Shown here: positions 31,347 through 43,373 of the stretch, in pieces | Layout of the letters: every line of letters starts with the position of its first letter | How positions within the stretch are numbered: the first letter of the stretch is position 1 | Origin: Devosia sp. 66-22 | GTDB taxonomy: Bacteria; Pseudomonadota; Alphaproteobacteria; Rhizobiales; Devosiaceae | Direction of reading: 5' to 3' | Assembly (NCBI GenBank): GCA_001899065.1 | Contig: MKUZ01000018.1 | Location: 278,840 to 342,839 of the forward strand | DNA length: 64,000 nucleotides | Notes under the pieces: model-generated | Seen by the model: the letters and a program-made list of their open reading frames with translations, nothing else | What the model was told of the DNA's origin: nothing | Database searches by the model: none | Translations under genes and position numbers: made by a program

Positions 31347-33080
31347 ATGGGCTTCGGAAATCTCGCCTCTGCATGGTCGGCGGGCCTGCGGGCGCTGCGC
31401 GGCGGCCCCGCCGCCAGCGAAACGCTCGCGCAGGTCGTGAACGACAGCTTCTCGGGCATGGTCGTCATCGACAGCGGCGGCATCGTCATCGCTGCGAGCC
31501 GCATCGCCTGCGATTTGCTCAACGAGGGCAGGCCGCTCGACGGACAGCGGGCCCAGCGCGTGCTGCCGCGCGACATGCACCTTGCCGTCGGGCAGGTGCT
31601 GGCCGAAACCACGCCCGCCACCGAGACGCCCCTCGCCATCGCCGTGGTGCACCATGGCAGCGAGACCGACGACCGGCTGGTGCTGCAATTCGCTGTGACC
31701 GCCAGCGTCGTCGGCACGTCCGAGCGCGTCGCCTGCCTCAATTTCTGGGACGTCACCGAACGCCGCCGCGCCGAAGAGCGCCTGTCGTTTCTTGCGACGC
31801 ACGATCCACTCACTGGCTCGCTGTCGCGTACCGGCTTCTGCAACGCCATCAATGAGCGCTTCGAAACCGAGCGCGGACGGGCGGAGGGCCTTGCCGTCTT
31901 CGCCATCGACCTCGCCCGCTTCAAGCCGGTCAACGACGCGCTCGGCCATGCGCATGGCGACATACTGCTCAAGCAGGTGGTGAGCCGCCTGCGTGCCACC
32001 GGCGCACAGTTCGTCGCCCGGCTGGGCGGCCACGCCTTCGCCGTCGCCCATCCCGGCCTGTCGCAGGCCGAGGCCGCGCAGTTCTGCGAGATCGTGCAGG
32101 ACCGGCTCGTCGCGCCCTACCAGCTCGGGCCACACCGCGCCATCGTCGGCGCCGATATCGGCATCAGCCACTCGGCGGTGTCCGGCTTCGATCCCGACCA
32201 ACTCCTCAGCCATGCCGACATGGCGCTCAACGTCGCCCGCGCCATGGCCGGCAAGGGCTACGCGGCGTTCTCGCCGGAGATGGACGAGAATTTGCGGGCT
32301 CGCCAGGAACTTGAGACCGAAATGCAGCAGGCCATGGAGCGCGGCGAGATTTCGCTGATGTTCCAGCCGCAGGCGTCGCTCGACGATGGCCGCATCATCG
32401 GGGTCGAGGCGCTGATGCGCTGGATGCATCCCGATCTCGGCGCCGTTTCGCCCGACCGCTTCATTCCGATCGCCGAGGAGACCGGCAAGATCGTCGAGCT
32501 CGGGCGCTGGATCCTCGAAGCCGCCTGCCGCGAAGTGGCGACCTGGCCCGGCGAGCTCAAGCTCTCGGTCAACATCTCGCCGATCCAGTTCGAGCTCATC
32601 GACGTGGTCGCTGAGGTGAAGGAAGCCCTGACCAGGTCCGGACTGCCGGCGCACCGGCTCGATGTCGAGATCACCGAGGGCATCTTCGTGTCCAATGTGC
32701 GTGCCACCATCGAAGCGCTGCAGAAGCTGCGCAATCTGGGGGTCGGCATCGCGCTCGACGATTTCGGCACCGGCTACTCGTCGCTGGGCTACCTCGGCCG
32801 GCTGCCCATCGACAAGATCAAGATCGACCAGAGCTTCGTGAAGAAGCTGCCCGGCGATCAACAGTCCGGCGTCATCATCCGCGCCGTGATGATGCTGAGC
32901 GAAGCGCTCAACAAGATCGTCATCGCCGAGGGCATCGAGACGGCCGACCAGGCCTGGATGCTCAAGATGATGGGCTGCAAGGTGGGGCAGGGCTATCATT
33001 TCGGCCGGCCCCGGACGGCTACCGAGATGCGCGCGAGCCTGGTGGAGCGCGCCGCGCCCTCGCTACCGGCGTCGGCCTAA
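31347..33080 (+). CDS. PAS-GGDEF-EAL cyclic-di-GMP protein (degenerate GGDEF)
   Basis: 577 residues. About 20-140 is a PAS-like sensor, 145-310 a GGDEF domain and 325-565 an EAL domain. The GGDEF signature is degenerate (RLGGHAFAV), so cyclase activity is unlikely. The EAL domain keeps GVEALMRW, the metal- and loop-6-type DDFGTGYSSLGYL, KIDQSFV and IAEGIET, so it should be an active c-di-GMP phosphodiesterase, possibly stimulated by GTP through the GGDEF part. No membrane segment, so cytosolic. Its stop overlaps the stop of the convergent Hsp70-like gene. Confidence 0.92.
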   Translation: MGFGNLASAWSAGLRALRGGPAASETLAQVVNDSFSGMVVIDSGGIVIAASRIACDLLNEGRPLDGQRAQRVLPRDMHLAVGQVLAETTPATETPLAIAVVHHGSETDDRLVLQFAVTASVVGTSERVACLNFWDVTERRRAEERLSFLATHDPLTGSLSRTGFCNAINERFETERGRAEGLAVFAIDLARFKPVNDALGHAHGDILLKQVVSRLRATGAQFVARLGGHAFAVAHPGLSQAEAAQFCEIVQDRLVAPYQLGPHRAIVGADIGISHSAVSGFDPDQLLSHADMALNVARAMAGKGYAAFSPEMDENLRARQELETEMQQAMERGEISLMFQPQASLDDGRIIGVEALMRWMHPDLGAVSPDRFIPIAEETGKIVELGRWILEAACREVATWPGELKLSVNISPIQFELIDVVAEVKEALTRSGLPAHRLDVEITEGIFVSNVRATIEALQKLRNLGVGIALDDFGTGYSSLGYLGRLPIDKIKIDQSFVKKLPGDQQSGVIIRAVMMLSEALNKIVIAEGIETADQAWMLKMMGCKVGQGYHFGRPRTATEMRASLVERAAPSLPASA

Positions 33081-37828: not shown

Positions 37829-40800
37829 TTAGCCGAGACGGCCGCTGGCGTGGGCCAGCATGGTGTAGACCTTGCCGCGGTCGGAGATGAGGATCGCGCG
37901 GGTCTCGCCCACCGGATCGCCACCCTGCGCAGCGCGCTGCAGCAGCTGTTCGAACTCGGTCATGTAGCTCGCCGCGTTCTTCATGAACTCGGCGTCGCTG
38001 CCGAGCCGGCGCTTGACCTGGTCGAAGGTCGACTGGCCGGTGAGGGTGTAGATGCGGCGCGAGAACACGTTCTGCTCGCCCATCTGGTACTGCTGCCAGG
38101 CCTCGCCGAGAGCTGCCGGATCGATCGCGCGGGCGATCTCGTCGGTGAGCGAGGTGAGGTTCTGCTGCTGCGCCGCGGCTGCGGGCGCAGAGGGCGTGGC
38201 CGGGGTCGTGGCATTGCGCAGCACGTCGCGCAGCCAGCCACCGCCACTTTCCTCGGTCTTGGCCGCCACGGGTGCAGCTTTCGGAGCCTCGGCGACCGGA
38301 GCGGCCACGACACGCGGCGCTTCCGCCACGGTCACGGTGCGCGGCGCCGGCTGCTGCGCCGGAGCGGGGGCAGGACGCGGCGGCTCCGCCGCGCGCGCCG
38401 GCTCGGGGCGCGGCTCGGCCCGCGGCGGGGTCGGGCGGCGGTCGCTGAGGTCGTGCGTGGCCGACTGGGCCCGCACGATGGCGTTGAGCTCGCTGAGCGC
38501 TTCGATCTGCTCGGCAACGACGCGGCGCATCGCGGCGGCGCTGGTCCGGGTCTCCTCGGGCAGCTCCATCACGCCGCGCGCAAGCTCGGACCGCGTGGCT
38601 TCGAGTTCGCTGCCGACCTCCTTGGCGGTTTCGCGCATCGCGGTGGCGGTGTCGTTGAAGCGACGGGTCGCCTCTTCGAGCGCCTGCTGCATTTCGAGGA
38701 TCATCGTCGCCTGGGTCTGGCGGAGGCTGTCGGAAGCCTTTTCGGTTTCGCTCTCGGCGGCGCTCCGGAACTCGGAGAGACGCTCGGTCACGCCCGACGA
38801 CGACGCCTTGAGCGCGTCGGCAACGAGGTTGCCCGAGTTGGAGAGGATGCTGGCGACTTCCGAGCTGGTGTTGGCCAGGGTCGAGGCGAAGCGGGCGCTG
38901 GTGGTCTCCAGGACCTCTTCGACCCTGCCGGTCGAGGTTTCGAGCACTTCCTGGACGCGGGTGGTCGAATTGGAGAGCAGGTTCTCGAACTGGTCGCGCG
39001 AGGAGGCCAGCACACTCTCCACCTGCTGGCTCTGTGCCGCCAGCGTGCTCTCGAGCTGCTGGTTCGAGCTGACGAGGGCCGTTTCGACCTGCTGGCTCTG
39101 GGCGGAGACGATGTTCTCCATCTGCGCACGGGCATCGAGCAGGCGGCGTTCGGTGTCGTTGACGGAGTCGGCGATGGTCTGCGCGAACATCCGCATGCGG
39201 CCGTCGATCTCGTCGGCGCGCGTGGTGAAGCTCTGGGCGAGGGCGTCCATCGCGGCGCGGCGCTCTTCGAGCACATCGAGCGACTGGTTGCCAGCCTGGC
39301 TGAGCGCCGCCGCCGACTGGTCGATCACGGCAACCTCGGAGTTGAGGTTGGTCATCATCGAACCGAAGTCGTCGATCATGCTGCGAACGGTCTGCTGCAG
39401 CGCGCCGACCTGGCTCGCCACGAGCTGGCCGGCCTGTTCGGTCGAGCCCACCGCGTCCCTGACCGTGGCGGAGTAGGCCGCGGTCTGGTTGGCAACCGAG
39501 CTCTCGAGCTGGGCAAGGCTGGTGTTCGCCGACTCGAGCACCTGCTGCAGGATGGTGTTGGACTGGTTGAGCCGGGTGAGCGCCTCGTTGGCGTCCGTAA
39601 GGATGCGGCTCGAGGTGGCGGACATGAGCTGCTCGGCCTGCGCGGCAGAGGAGGTGAGAGCCTCCTGCAGCACATTGCCATGCGAGCGCAGCATGCTTTC
39701 GAGCTGTTCGGAACGCTGTTCCACGAGAGCGGCCAGCGAGTCCGACTGCGAGGTGACCGTCTGGCTGAGGGCGCTGACGCGGGTCTCGATGGCGTCGGTC
39801 GCTGCGACCGCCTTGATCGAGATGAGCTCGTCGATCGAGCGCGAGGCGGTCTGGATCTGCTCCAGGGCCTGGCGCACATGGGTGTCCATGCGGTCGGCGG
39901 TCTCGGCCACATCGAGCGTGATGTTGGCCGTCGCCGCGACGATGCGCTTGCTGATGGTCTCTTCGATCCGGTCGGCGCCGGCCTCGAGGTCGGCCATCGA
40001 CTGCACCAGGGCCGTGTTGATCGCCGTGTTGAGCGAAGCCAGGCGCTCGGCCGTGATATCGGCGCGCGCGGTGATGGCCTCGGGCAGGGTGCCCAGCCGC
40101 TGGTCGACCATGTCGGTGATCGCCTTGCGGGCCGAGTTGACACCAGTCTCGATGATATCGGCGGCTTTGCGGGCGCTGTCGCCCACGGTGGCGGCGGCGC
40201 CGTCGATCCGGGCGGTCACGCCGCTTTCAGCATCGGCGATGCGGAGGATGGCGGAGTCGATGCCGCGACCGAGGTTGTCGTTGACCTCCGCCACCTTGCT
40301 GGCGATGAGCGTCGACACGGCGGTGGCGCGGTCAGCCATGATGTCGGTGACCGAGCGGAGGCTCGAGTCGATCTTGTCGCGAGCGCCGGTGCCCTGCGCG
40401 TCGATCGTGCGGGCAAGCTCCATCGTGCGGTCGCCGATAGCTGCTGCCACGGCTGCGGTGTGCGTGCCGAGCACTTCGCCCAGCTGCTGCGTGCGGGTGT
40501 TGAGCGCTTCGCTCAATTCAGACGAACGCGTGCCGACGGTTGAGGCCAGCATCTGGGTGCGCTGGTCGAGCGTTGCGGCGAGGGCGTTGTGCTGCTGTTC
40601 GAGCGTCTGGCTCAGCGTATCGAAGCGGCTGTCGAAGGCCGTGCCGATCTGCGCCGTGTGCGTGGTGAGCGCGTTGTCGAGCAGGGTCGTGCGGCCCTGG
40701 AGGATTTCGTTGATCTCGCTGGCGCGGCCGAGCAGGGTCTCGCCCAGTTCGTTCGTGCGCGAGGCAACGGCGTCCGCGAGTTCTCCGGTGCGGGTCGAGA

Positions 40801-42631
40801 GGGTGTCGGTGAGCGCCTGGGTGCGGCCATCGAGGGCGTCGGCCAGGATCTGCGAGTGACCTTCGAGCGCGTCGGACATTTCGCGCGAGCGATTGCCGAT
40901 GACTTCGGTGATCTGCTTGGACCGCTGTCCGAGCGTTTCGATCATCTCGCGGGTGCGCTGCGAAACGATGTCGTTGAAGTGGCCGGACTTCTCGTCCAGC
41001 GCCATTTCGAGCACGTTGGCGCGGGCAGCGAAGCTTGCATTGTGCTTTTCGAGCGCCGCAACGAGCTTCTCACCCTTGTCGCCGACGACGCCGTCGAGGG
41101 CCTGGAGGCGCGTGTCGATGACGACGGCGATCTCATCGAGGCGGGCATCGAACTGGGTGAGGTTCTGCGAGCCGGCGCCCATCAGGGTCACGCGGGCGCG
41201 TTCGGTGGTGTCGTCCAGCGCGCCGCTCAGTTCGATCATCGCGGTCTGGAGCTTGCTCTCCATCGCGTTGACCTGGATCGAGATCGCCTCGTCGAGCTGC
41301 TTGCTGAGATTGCCCAGCAGGCCCTCGGCCTCGTGCGTACGCGCCGAGATATCGGTGGCGATGCGGCTGCCGATCATGTCGAGCGAGGATGACACCTCGT
41401 GACCGCGGTCGCGGAGCTGGTCGAGCAGGGTGATGCCACCCTGGCTGAGCAGCTTGGCGAGCGACGAGGTGCGGTTCTCGATCGCTTCGGCGAGCGTGTT
41501 GCCGCGGCCATCGAGCGCTTCGGTGAGCGCGTTGATGCGGCCGTCGATGATGGTGGAAAATTCCTGGGTGCGGTTCTCGAAGGCGCCGGTGATGGTGCCG
41601 GCGCGGTCTTCGAGCGTGATGTTGAGGCGGCTGGCGCTGTCGTCGAGGGCGCTCAGCAGGTGGCTGGTGCGCTGGTCGATCAGCGACACGAAGGACTCGG
41701 TGCGCTCGCCGAAGGCGCCGTTGAGCGAATTGCCAGCAGTTTCGAGCGCCTTGGTCAAATTGCCGCCGGACTCGACGATCGTGCCGGCGATGCGCTGGCT
41801 GATCATGTCGAGGTCGAACACGAGGCCGGTGTGGCTCTCGGTGATGGCTTCGCGCACGCGCTCGGTATTGGTGATCACCGCTTCGCGCTGGCTGGCCAGT
41901 TCCTGGATCAGCGCGCGCATGCGGGATTCGTTGTCGGAGTAGGTGCGCTCGAGGGCGGTGACCTCGTTGTGGATCATCACTTCGAGCTCGCCGGCGCGGG
42001 AGAGGGCGCGCTCGAGCCCGTCACCCAGCGCATTCACCTCGCGGCGGACGGCCTGGCCGACCGAGGCAACCTTCTCGGAAGCGGTCGTTTCGGGCTCGGC
42101 GAGACGGATCGCAGCATGCGTCACGGCCGTCGCGGCGTTGCGCAGGTCCTGCGCGCGACGGATGAGCGTGGCGATGGCGAAGAAGGCGAAGACCGGGATG
42201 GCGGCGAGCGCGATCAGGCCGATGAAGTCGTTGGAGCCCCAGAACGACGAACTGCCGAGCTGGCTGCCATTGCGGATGATGCCGATGCCCAGGATGGCGG
42301 CGACCCAGACGATCGACACGATGACGGCGACGAAGCTGGGGGTCGAGTTGGACCGCGACTGCAGACCGTAGAGGATGCGCGAGCCCTGGAAACGGTCGTC
42401 ATTGGCGACCGATCCGGACATCGCCGCCTGCTTGTCGGCAACGCGGGCGCGTTCGGCGCGCGAACCGGCGCGGGGGCCCTGCGGCTGCATGGAGGGAGAT
42501 TGTGGTTCGTCCCGCAGATCGGGAGCGGCCGGCTCGGAGCTGTCGCCGAAGACGGAGTCTTTGAGAGCGTCCTCAACCGCGGAGAATGCGAGGGTTGCGG
42601 GATCTTCCTGGGTGCTCGATTTCTTCGCCAT
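37829..42631 (-). CDS. Giant apolipoprotein-like coiled-coil membrane protein (growth-pole-ring-like)
   Basis: 1600 residues. A disordered N-terminus (1-95) is followed by two membrane helices (about 99-119 and 136-157), then about 1150 residues of near-unbroken amphipathic helix, a Pro/Ala-rich linker (about 1390-1450) and a small C-terminal domain. The helix is built on 11-residue repeats of the form R-T-x-x-L-x-x-x-L-x-x; residues 559-745 hold 17 in a row, and other runs occur at 310-500 and about 1170-1270. Size, N-terminal anchor and apolipoprotein-like helix match the Rhizobiales GPR protein of Agrobacterium, which forms a ring at the growth pole. Homology is inferred from architecture. 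CtrA boxes lie upstream. Confidence 0.85.
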   Translation of the reverse strand: MAKKSSTQEDPATLAFSAVEDALKDSVFGDSSEPAAPDLRDEPQSPSMQPQGPRAGSRAERARVADKQAAMSGSVANDDRFQGSRILYGLQSRSNSTPSFVAVIVSIVWVAAILGIGIIRNGSQLGSSSFWGSNDFIGLIALAAIPVFAFFAIATLIRRAQDLRNAATAVTHAAIRLAEPETTASEKVASVGQAVRREVNALGDGLERALSRAGELEVMIHNEVTALERTYSDNESRMRALIQELASQREAVITNTERVREAITESHTGLVFDLDMISQRIAGTIVESGGNLTKALETAGNSLNGAFGERTESFVSLIDQRTSHLLSALDDSASRLNITLEDRAGTITGAFENRTQEFSTIIDGRINALTEALDGRGNTLAEAIENRTSSLAKLLSQGGITLLDQLRDRGHEVSSSLDMIGSRIATDISARTHEAEGLLGNLSKQLDEAISIQVNAMESKLQTAMIELSGALDDTTERARVTLMGAGSQNLTQFDARLDEIAVVIDTRLQALDGVVGDKGEKLVAALEKHNASFAARANVLEMALDEKSGHFNDIVSQRTREMIETLGQRSKQITEVIGNRSREMSDALEGHSQILADALDGRTQALTDTLSTRTGELADAVASRTNELGETLLGRASEINEILQGRTTLLDNALTTHTAQIGTAFDSRFDTLSQTLEQQHNALAATLDQRTQMLASTVGTRSSELSEALNTRTQQLGEVLGTHTAAVAAAIGDRTMELARTIDAQGTGARDKIDSSLRSVTDIMADRATAVSTLIASKVAEVNDNLGRGIDSAILRIADAESGVTARIDGAAATVGDSARKAADIIETGVNSARKAITDMVDQRLGTLPEAITARADITAERLASLNTAINTALVQSMADLEAGADRIEETISKRIVAATANITLDVAETADRMDTHVRQALEQIQTASRSIDELISIKAVAATDAIETRVSALSQTVTSQSDSLAALVEQRSEQLESMLRSHGNVLQEALTSSAAQAEQLMSATSSRILTDANEALTRLNQSNTILQQVLESANTSLAQLESSVANQTAAYSATVRDAVGSTEQAGQLVASQVGALQQTVRSMIDDFGSMMTNLNSEVAVIDQSAAALSQAGNQSLDVLEERRAAMDALAQSFTTRADEIDGRMRMFAQTIADSVNDTERRLLDARAQMENIVSAQSQQVETALVSSNQQLESTLAAQSQQVESVLASSRDQFENLLSNSTTRVQEVLETSTGRVEEVLETTSARFASTLANTSSEVASILSNSGNLVADALKASSSGVTERLSEFRSAAESETEKASDSLRQTQATMILEMQQALEEATRRFNDTATAMRETAKEVGSELEATRSELARGVMELPEETRTSAAAMRRVVAEQIEALSELNAIVRAQSATHDLSDRRPTPPRAEPRPEPARAAEPPRPAPAPAQQPAPRTVTVAEAPRVVAAPVAEAPKAAPVAAKTEESGGGWLRDVLRNATTPATPSAPAAAAQQQNLTSLTDEIARAIDPAALGEAWQQYQMGEQNVFSRRIYTLTGQSTFDQVKRRLGSDAEFMKNAASYMTEFEQLLQRAAQGGDPVGETRAILISDRGKVYTMLAHASGRLG
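40397..40957 (-). repeat. Seventeen consecutive 11-residue (33-bp) coding repeats
   Basis: Inside the giant gene, residues 559-745 split cleanly into 17 units of 11, for example RTREMIETLGQ, RTQALTDTLST, RTGELADAVAS, RTTLLDNALTT, RTQMLASTVGT. Arg or His leads most units and hydrophobic residues fall at positions 5 and 9. The DNA copies are diverged, so the repeat is old rather than a recent expansion. Confidence 0.85.
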
Positions 42632-42828: not shown

Positions 42829-42843
42829 TTAAGCAAAGGTTAA
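42829..42843. promoter_or_regulatory. Perfect CtrA binding site TTAA-N7-TTAA
   Basis: TTAA (42829-42832), seven bases, TTAA (42840-42843), identical to the consensus of the alphaproteobacterial cell-cycle regulator CtrA. It is 198 bases from the giant-gene start and 135 bases from the Hpt start. Confidence 0.65.
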
Positions 42844-42977: not shown

Positions 42978-43373
42978 ATGCGTGGCGACAACACGGCCAA
43001 GGCCGCTGAGTTCGAGGCTACCGAGCCCGAGATTCGCCGACCCATCGACATGGAGCATCTGAGCCGCCAGACGCTGGGCGACCCCGGACTCGAAGAGGAG
43101 GTACTGCGCCTCTTCGACCAGATGACTCACACCTATTACGAGCGCCTCGAGATCAGCACGAGCGTGGACGAGCTGCTGCGCAACCTCCACACGCTCAAAG
43201 GAGCGGCAGCCGGCGTCGGTGCGTTCGGTCTGGCCGAGCTGGCACGGGTCGCCGAGCAGGAGCTGCGCGAAGGCGCGCCGGTCAATCCGGAGCGGATCGA
43301 CGATCTCGCCGTGGCCGTGCAGGAAGTCTCGGCTTTCATCGGCGACCGGCTGAGGGCTGCCGAGGCGGCATAA
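42978..43373 (+). CDS. Hpt-domain phosphotransfer protein
   Basis: 131 residues. A single helical Hpt domain from about residue 25 to 125, with the phosphorylatable His71 in the block LLRNLHTLKGAAAGVG, the HxxKG signature. Lacks kinase and receiver domains, so it must shuttle phosphate between separate two-component proteins. It is divergent from the growth-pole-type gene and shares CtrA-box control, suggesting a link to cell-cycle phosphorelays; it is not ChpT, which is a longer pseudo-kinase. ATG 43050 is a weaker alternative start. Confidence 0.9.
   Translation: MRGDNTAKAAEFEATEPEIRRPIDMEHLSRQTLGDPGLEEEVLRLFDQMTHTYYERLEISTSVDELLRNLHTLKGAAAGVGAFGLAELARVAEQELREGAPVNPERIDDLAVAVQEVSAFIGDRLRAAEAA

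Follow-up and report, generated by a model that had tools for sequence, protein, structure and literature searches.

The gene and its product

The gene considered here lies on the minus strand of the window, by which the whole 64-kb stretch of DNA that was analysed is meant, and two divergent genes stand beside it (Table 1). Its product is an ordinary, well-formed member of the known GPR/RgsE family. The first-pass annotation, made from the letters of the DNA, had described a protein of 1600 residues with two N-terminal membrane helices and about 1150 residues of helix built on 11-residue repeats. All of this was borne out: the length by the open reading frame, the membrane helices by hydropathy and an AF2 model, and the repeats by an 11/3 period in the spectrum of a rod of ~1160 residues.

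Table 1. Features of the locus, with positions in the window, strand and basis of assignment
Feature	Position	Strand	Basis
GPR/RgsE-family protein, 1600 aa	37829..42631	-	Open reading frame, ATG start; hhalign to S. meliloti RgsE, both ends, probability 100
Membrane helix 1, residues 95-123	42263..42349	-	Hydropathy over 1.6; helix in AF2 model, moderate confidence
Membrane helix 2, residues 132-160	42152..42238	-	Hydropathy; AF2 model
Conserved N-core, residues 155-266 (RRAQDLR...RLAEPET...AVRREVNAL...)	41834..42169	-	Alignments
Rod, ~1160 residues, anchors E198 to P1358	38561..42037	-	Period 3.66; anchors; PF01442
17 ungapped hendecads, residues 559-745	40397..40957	-	Periodicity analysis
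Rod-end block, residues 1338-1389 (ELEATRSELARGVMELPEETR...)	38465..38620	-	Alignments
Pro/Ala-rich linker, residues 1390-1475	38207..38464	-	Composition, alignment
C-terminal domain, residues 1484-1600, ending GKVYTMLAHASGRLG	37832..38182	-	Alignments; AF2
Conserved leader GACGTGAGAGTTGTAAGAGTATGGC around start codon	42627..42651	-	Similar in most of 13 same-family members
TTAA-N7-TTAA box (CtrA-type), between the GPR/RgsE and Hpt genes	42829..42843	-	Motif search
Divergent Hpt-domain protein, 131 aa, HTLKG motif	42978..43373	+	PF01627, E 5e-10
2Fe-2S ferredoxin, 106 aa	43432..43752	+	PF00111, E 8e-11

The head region that precedes the membrane helices is variable. For residues 90-329, the AF2 model gives a helical hairpin running on into long helices (mean pLDDT 77.2), the model of this N-terminal part being only moderately confident (pTM 0.36). 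The N-core is the most conserved block among 11 members of the window's family; it can be aligned across 27 order-wide members and falls inside the 44%-identical match to RgsE described below. At the far end of the rod, a proline is present in all 98 sequences with a recognisable rod-end block (99 were tried).

The C-terminal domain has ~117 residues, and AF2 models the last 125 residues as six helices (pLDDT 84.2). That it belongs to no Pfam family is a new observation. The best Pfam match of the window's domain was DUF2937 at 18.2 bits, short of its cut-off of 25.3; with E <= 0.1 as the limit, none of the families matched more than 3 of 44 members. The domain profile found one marginal match among PDB sequences, apolipoprotein A-I (E 0.38). 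Its AF2 fold gave no match to the PDB at E <= 0.001, which is no proof of a new fold.

Also present in the window, ~5 kb from the gene, is a GGDEF-EAL protein (31347-33077, plus strand). RgsP, a GGDEF-EAL protein, is used in the polar growth of S. meliloti.

Orthology with RgsE

A tblastn search of a plasmid collection led to the S. meliloti Ak57 record CP090106.1. One of its genes, annotated as 'kinesin', has a product of exactly 2089 aa, which is the published length of RgsE (PMC7327166). RgsE (SMc00190) was recognised by this exact length together with homology, the SMc00190 tag being absent from the record. The same 3.7-Mb record is filed as plasmid pSymB, but its folate, cytochrome b/c1 and rgsE genes suggest that a chromosome was mislabelled.

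By hhalign, the N-region of the window protein matches RgsE with a probability of 100 (E 1.1e-45, 44% identity over 206 columns), and the C-region does so with the same probability (E 1.4e-52, 40% identity over 268 columns). The homology thus sits at both ends, outside the repeats. PF01442, the Pfam family of the rod, matches RgsE as well (E 7.6e-77). The gene neighbourhood is shared too: a divergent Hpt gene followed by a 2Fe-2S ferredoxin gene stands in the same order in the window and beside S. meliloti rgsE. The two ferredoxins are 61% identical, and the Hpt proteins have a 30-residue stretch at 57% in common.

As is characteristic of GPR/RgsE, the window protein combines two N-terminal membrane helices, a very long PF01442 helix and, in the alignments, a Pro-rich stretch followed by a conserved C-terminal domain, with homology outside the rod and the gene neighbourhood in addition. 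Judged by sequence and gene position, it is a GPR/RgsE orthologue. The earlier proposal of a GPR-like architecture is thereby upheld, by way of RgsE, as regards the family and the order of the parts. A likeness that goes no further than generic coiled coil, which the first-pass annotation had named as the outcome that would speak against it, is excluded by the end homologies and the shared neighbourhood. The further idea, that a copy about 500 residues shorter tests which part of GPR is essential, did not hold, as the survey below makes plain.

Periodicity of the rod

The hydrophobicity spectrum of residues 170-1400 peaks at 3.66 residues with a power of 77. At 11/3 exactly, a power of 37.8 was obtained, where none of 300 shuffles exceeded 6.2; the heptad period of 3.5 gave 0.3. 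The highest residue-identity lags are 11, 55, 44, 22 and 33. The 11/3 phase is near-constant over residues 265-530, drifts slowly up to ~1000, breaks near 1020-1120 and then resumes to ~1350. The 17 consecutive 11-mers, with the consensus R-T-x-E-L-x-E/D-T/A-L-x-x, run without an indel at a mean pairwise identity of 27.5% (shuffle mean 8.6%, maximum 11.0% in 500 shuffles). The first-pass annotation was thus right to speak of 17 copies in perfect register; to call them perfect copies would be wrong.

PF01442 is the sole Pfam family over the cut-off in the 1600-residue protein (E 6.9e-35, 8 stretches), and taken alone it would suit other long helices with a period of 11 residues as well. Among 99 rods of the GPR/RgsE family, the strongest repeat lag between 5 and 39 is a multiple of 11, often 22, in 92. 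Nearly all rods of more than 1000 residues peak at 3.65-3.67, one exception lying at 3.636, and many short rods peak at 3.57-3.65. At the DNA level, the only tandem repeats in the gene with a score of at least 40 are a 33-nt array of 2.1 copies and a 12-nt array of 2.3 copies. With almost no recent 33-nt tandem identity, recent slippage has left little trace.

Distribution and neighbourhood across genomes

A GPR/RgsE protein is carried by all 11 genomes of the window's family, including the source genome, which has one copy. In the order as a whole, the alphaproteobacterial one of Rhizobium, the GPR/RgsE family was found in 80 of 81 genomes in a first draw and in 146 of 150 in a larger one (131 of 131 of good quality). 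Each positive genome of the larger draw gave a single match, apart from one with two overlapping matches at one place. From these 146 matches 100 were chosen, including all 18 MreB-positive ones and most short ones, and 11 of the window's family were added, so that 111 loci were extracted. N-core and C-domain occur in one frame in 98 of the 111 (frame lengths 845-2940 aa); among the 13 loci with no C-domain at the frame end, a contig cut, a frameshift and divergence are not told apart. Outside the order, a broader profile found the family in 17 of 113 genomes. The C-domain is present in 14 of the 15 other-order loci fetched, at the frame end in 13 (frames of 691-2418 aa), the fifteenth running off the fetched stretch.

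Length therefore varies more than threefold across the order, and 1600 residues is mid-range. The shortness of the window protein is ordinary and not informative. What is informative is the conservation of both ends, which the rod does not share.

Where at least 1.5 kb upstream was available (102 loci), an Hpt relative is found near the GPR/RgsE gene in 83 and a ferredoxin relative in 96. Among all 111 loci, 87 of 88 Hpt matches and 97 of 98 ferredoxin matches are upstream and divergent, and of the 80 loci having both, 74 have the ferredoxin gene on the far side of the Hpt gene. In the other-order loci, an Hpt relative is nearby in 3 of 15 and a ferredoxin in 1 of 15. Throughout the order, also where MreB is present, the small Hpt-domain protein (HTLKG) is encoded divergently next to the family, and it may be a functional partner. 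An HxLKG-like pattern is absent in 13 of the 90 matched Hpt frames.

Rod length and register

Two anchor residues delimit the rod span as measured here: the E of RREV, or the residue equivalent to it, and the P of LPEE. RgsE brought the 98 complete loci to 99 sequences, of which 98 have the rod-end block and 96 were kept; L058 was dropped for a gap beside the anchor and L141 for a misaligned anchor. RgsE was assigned to family f80 by its position in the tree. A count of gaps by modulus 11 (162 of 196) is biased by the aligner, and anchor spans were relied on instead.

The spans run from 328 to 2325 residues. Within families, 117 pairs, which share ancestry, differ in span. Of these differences, 50 are divisible by 11 (9% expected), 49 equal +/-4 mod 11, 11 equal +/-3 and 7 take any other value. 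A change of +/-4 mod 11 amounts to one heptad added or removed, and +/-3 to two heptads. In all, 99 of the 117 within-family differences are thus 11n or 11n +/-4. Moduli 5-10 and 12-17 show no clear excess among the same differences. When disjoint pairs were drawn, a median of 10 of 27 differences were divisible by 11, and the lowest draw gave 7 of 26 (p 0.007).

In the window's family, where spans reach from 874 to 1831, only three classes mod 11 occur, holding 8 (5 mod 11), 4 (1 mod 11) and 1 of the 13 spans. As these classes are 4 apart, the Rayleigh test on the 13 gives p 0.12. For unevenness of the classes the chi-square is 2.5e-8, which is only indicative as the expected counts are near 1. 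Among short spans, up to 850, several other moduli show a deviation as well, for which shared ancestry can account.

That rod length varies with the register kept is new here. Indels in the rod would appear to be accepted when the hydrophobic seam stays continuous. The multiples of 11 could partly stem from recombination between repeats and not from selection; the little 33-nt tandem identity makes slippage alone a weak explanation of them. The question thereby shifts from which part is missing in a short copy to why the ends and the register are kept while rod length is free.

Co-occurrence with MreB

The source genome has no MreB match at E <= 1e-25. The frame lengths of its weaker matches suggest other actin-fold proteins, e.g., DnaK and FtsA. 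Across the order, MreB was found at the same threshold in 19 of 150 genomes, and 18 of these 19 also have the GPR/RgsE family. The one exception, G193, is an 88% complete genome; the MreB match of another, G076, is partial, and the absence of MreB from incomplete genomes may reflect an assembly gap. Of the 27 genomes or records tested individually, 20 have MreB, and these 20 include six of the seven tested genomes from other orders that carry the family. Hyphomicrobium sp. CS1BSMeth3 has MreB together with a 1033-aa member that retains both ends. Methyloceanibacter methanicus R-67174 has MreB and the N-core, with no C-domain at the frame end, and M. superfactus R-67175 has MreB and the N-core in a frame cut by the contig end. 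No MreB match was obtained in three Rhodomicrobium genomes and Methyloligella sp. GL2, all of which have the GPR/RgsE family.

The co-occurrence of GPR/RgsE with MreB is new here and goes against a published suggestion of mutual exclusion, in which four MreB-positive species of Rhizobiales were reported to lack Rgs homologues (PMC7327166). As described there, homologues of RgsE had to lie within 50% of 2089 aa in length and to satisfy a limit of 1e-40 on E as well as a topology filter, and these filters may have removed such MreB-positive members. Stop-to-stop frames under 1045 aa are found in 5 of the 16 complete MreB-positive members, so that the length filter can explain only part of the difference from that report.

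MreB-positive members are short. Their core-to-end length has a median of 805.5 and a maximum of 1216 (16 complete), against a median of 1523.5 in MreB-negative ones (82 complete; Mann-Whitney p 1.6e-5), these medians not being population values owing to the choice of loci. The idea that MreB loss drives lengthening was rejected: on the GPR tree, PGLS gave a lambda of ~1 and a coefficient of 0.007 (p 0.91), and independent pairs lend the link no support. Phylogeny accounts for the shortness. Since the family occurs in MreB-positive genomes and in other orders, its presence alone is no proof of polar growth.

Promoter region

The TTAA-N7-TTAA box occurs once in the window (mean 0.02 in 50 shuffles) and is kept in 12 of 13 members of the same family. 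Such a box is present in 27 of 110 upstream regions, where shuffling each region predicts 1.7, although the 110 over-represent the window's family, the source of 11 of the 27. It was seen in 5 of 1452 control tiles, and boxes with spacings of 5, 6, 8 or 9 were found in 5-8 of the 110 regions. The CtrA consensus is reported as TTAA-N7-TTAAC (PMC7200025); read on the strand towards the GPR/RgsE gene, the window's box is without the final C.

A CtrA-type box in this promoter region is new here. The available text of PMC9022086 makes no link of CtrA to GPR, and the main text of PMC4433202, on CtrA in S. meliloti, contains no SMc00190, SMc00189, TTAA or kinesin. As the box is found in only 13 of 50 families, and S. 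meliloti rgsE has no perfect box within 450 nt upstream, control of the gene by CtrA is predicted for the window's lineage.

The start codon is surrounded by a leader that in most of 13 same-family members reads GACGCGAGAGTTGTAAAGAGTATGGC or close to it, and it is conserved as nucleotides. The window's copy is one base short, which shifts the upstream frame, so that the leader does not extend the reading frame.

Proposed role and alternative readings

How wall growth is confined to one pole when MreB is lacking is a question that concerns this order, and GPR/RgsE is among the few known scaffolds. With a probability of about three in four, the window protein is a GPR/RgsE orthologue that acts as a membrane-anchored, register-locked polar rod or scaffold in a genome with no MreB match. 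The transmembrane hairpin and the N-core would fix the protein in the inner membrane, with its bulk presumably in the cytoplasm. The near-continuous hendecad helix would self-associate as a slightly right-handed coiled coil. A helix rises 0.15 nm per residue, at which a fully extended window rod would measure ~174 nm. The flexible Pro-rich tether would carry the small all-helical C-domain, which may bind a partner or close the oligomer. The assembly would sit at the growing pole and hold there the machinery that makes membrane and wall. The rod would then be a spacer whose length is open to evolutionary change, mostly by steps that leave the register of the hydrophobic seam intact. Its polar position, ring and scaffold role would be carried over from RgsE and GPR, which are described as sitting at the growing pole and whose loss deforms cells (PMC7327166, PMC8262873). 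The published deletions of GPR (PMC8262873) fit this mechanism in part: function is abolished when 221 C-terminal residues are lost, yet paired foci still form when 332 are lost, so that the C-terminal end is needed for function and not for ring assembly.

The rod may be read differently, as a bacterial apolipoprotein whose amphipathic 11- or 22-mers lie on or wrap lipid and sort the lipids of the polar membrane, the rod being a lipid-binding surface and no spacer. The PF01442 match and the prevalence among the rods of lags that are multiples of 11, often 22, agree with it, and a lipid role is favoured by the authors of the GPR work. Zupan et al. hold that GPR is folded back on itself and might sort lipids in the manner of an apolipoprotein, and they argue that folding is needed as an extended helix of 1700 residues would reach 600 nm, against foci of 50 nm (PMC8262873). 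The quoted 600 nm does not agree with the rise given above, by which 1700 residues come to ~255 nm; the folding argument is thus weaker than stated, not removed. In our judgement, PF01442 reflects amphipathic periodicity of 11 residues and is by itself no sign of lipid binding, and independent lipid-binding helices would not obviously need a register kept from end to end. We consider the apolipoprotein reading rather unlikely. Somewhat less likely still is that the protein, an orthologue by descent, organises the pole or envelope in general, e.g., in Tol-Pal-linked division, and not polar growth. Its coexistence with MreB in the same order and in others would suit such a role, as would the interaction of RgsE with TolQ in a two-hybrid test (PMC7327166), but in a source genome with no MreB match another elongation system is to be expected. 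A generic long coiled coil, or a ZorA-like motor or defence protein that resembles GPR in architecture only, is extremely improbable: the rod does draw NCBIfam ZorA matches of 24.5 and 22.9 bits, far from the cut-offs of 250 and 190, on which an identity as ZorA was rejected, and the specific homology of the two ends, which lie outside the rod, and the shared synteny speak against it.

Beyond the polar rod or scaffold preferred here, a broader proposal may be offered tentatively, as possible and not as probable. GPR/RgsE would be an ancient polar rod of the alphaproteobacteria, older than the loss of MreB and no invention of polar growth, which began as a short phased coiled coil joining a membrane hairpin to an undescribed C-domain. 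In lineages that turned to polar growth, it would have been lengthened by hendecads and heptads with the seam unbroken, giving a tunable spacer of up to ~350 nm by which the growth zone is sized or positioned, and the gene would be switched by CtrA together with the divergent Hpt protein. For specialists, the interest lies in the rule that register is kept, the presence of the family alongside MreB, the CtrA-type box and a C-domain that has yet to be described.

Comparison with known systems

The apolipoprotein A1/A4/E family (PF01442) has the same helical periodicity of 11 or 22 residues. To our knowledge, it has no membrane anchor, N-core or C-domain of the GPR/RgsE kind. Its members are described as small, single-domain lipid-transport proteins of ~250-400 aa (PMC8262873).

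GPR of A. tumefaciens (Atu1348) is compared through its published description, the link by sequence running via S. meliloti RgsE only, which is called a homologue of GPR at 42% identity (PMC7327166). The description of GPR has in common with the window protein two N-terminal membrane domains, a helix of ~1700 aa, a Pro-rich part at 1890-2000 and an essential C-terminus; it differs in being 2115 aa long, i.e., 515 residues longer (PMC8262873).

The closest likeness is to RgsE, which shares the membrane-helix region, the N-core, the PF01442 hendecad rod, the Pro-rich linker, the C-domain and the divergent Hpt and ferredoxin genes. On the other flank, cytochrome c1 and b genes stand beside rgsE, whereas the window has an MFS transporter. 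RgsE is 489 residues longer than the window protein, and its rod spans 1604 residues against 1160. The spectra of the two proteins peak at 3.654 (power 51.0) in RgsE and at 3.662 (power 82.5) in the window protein.
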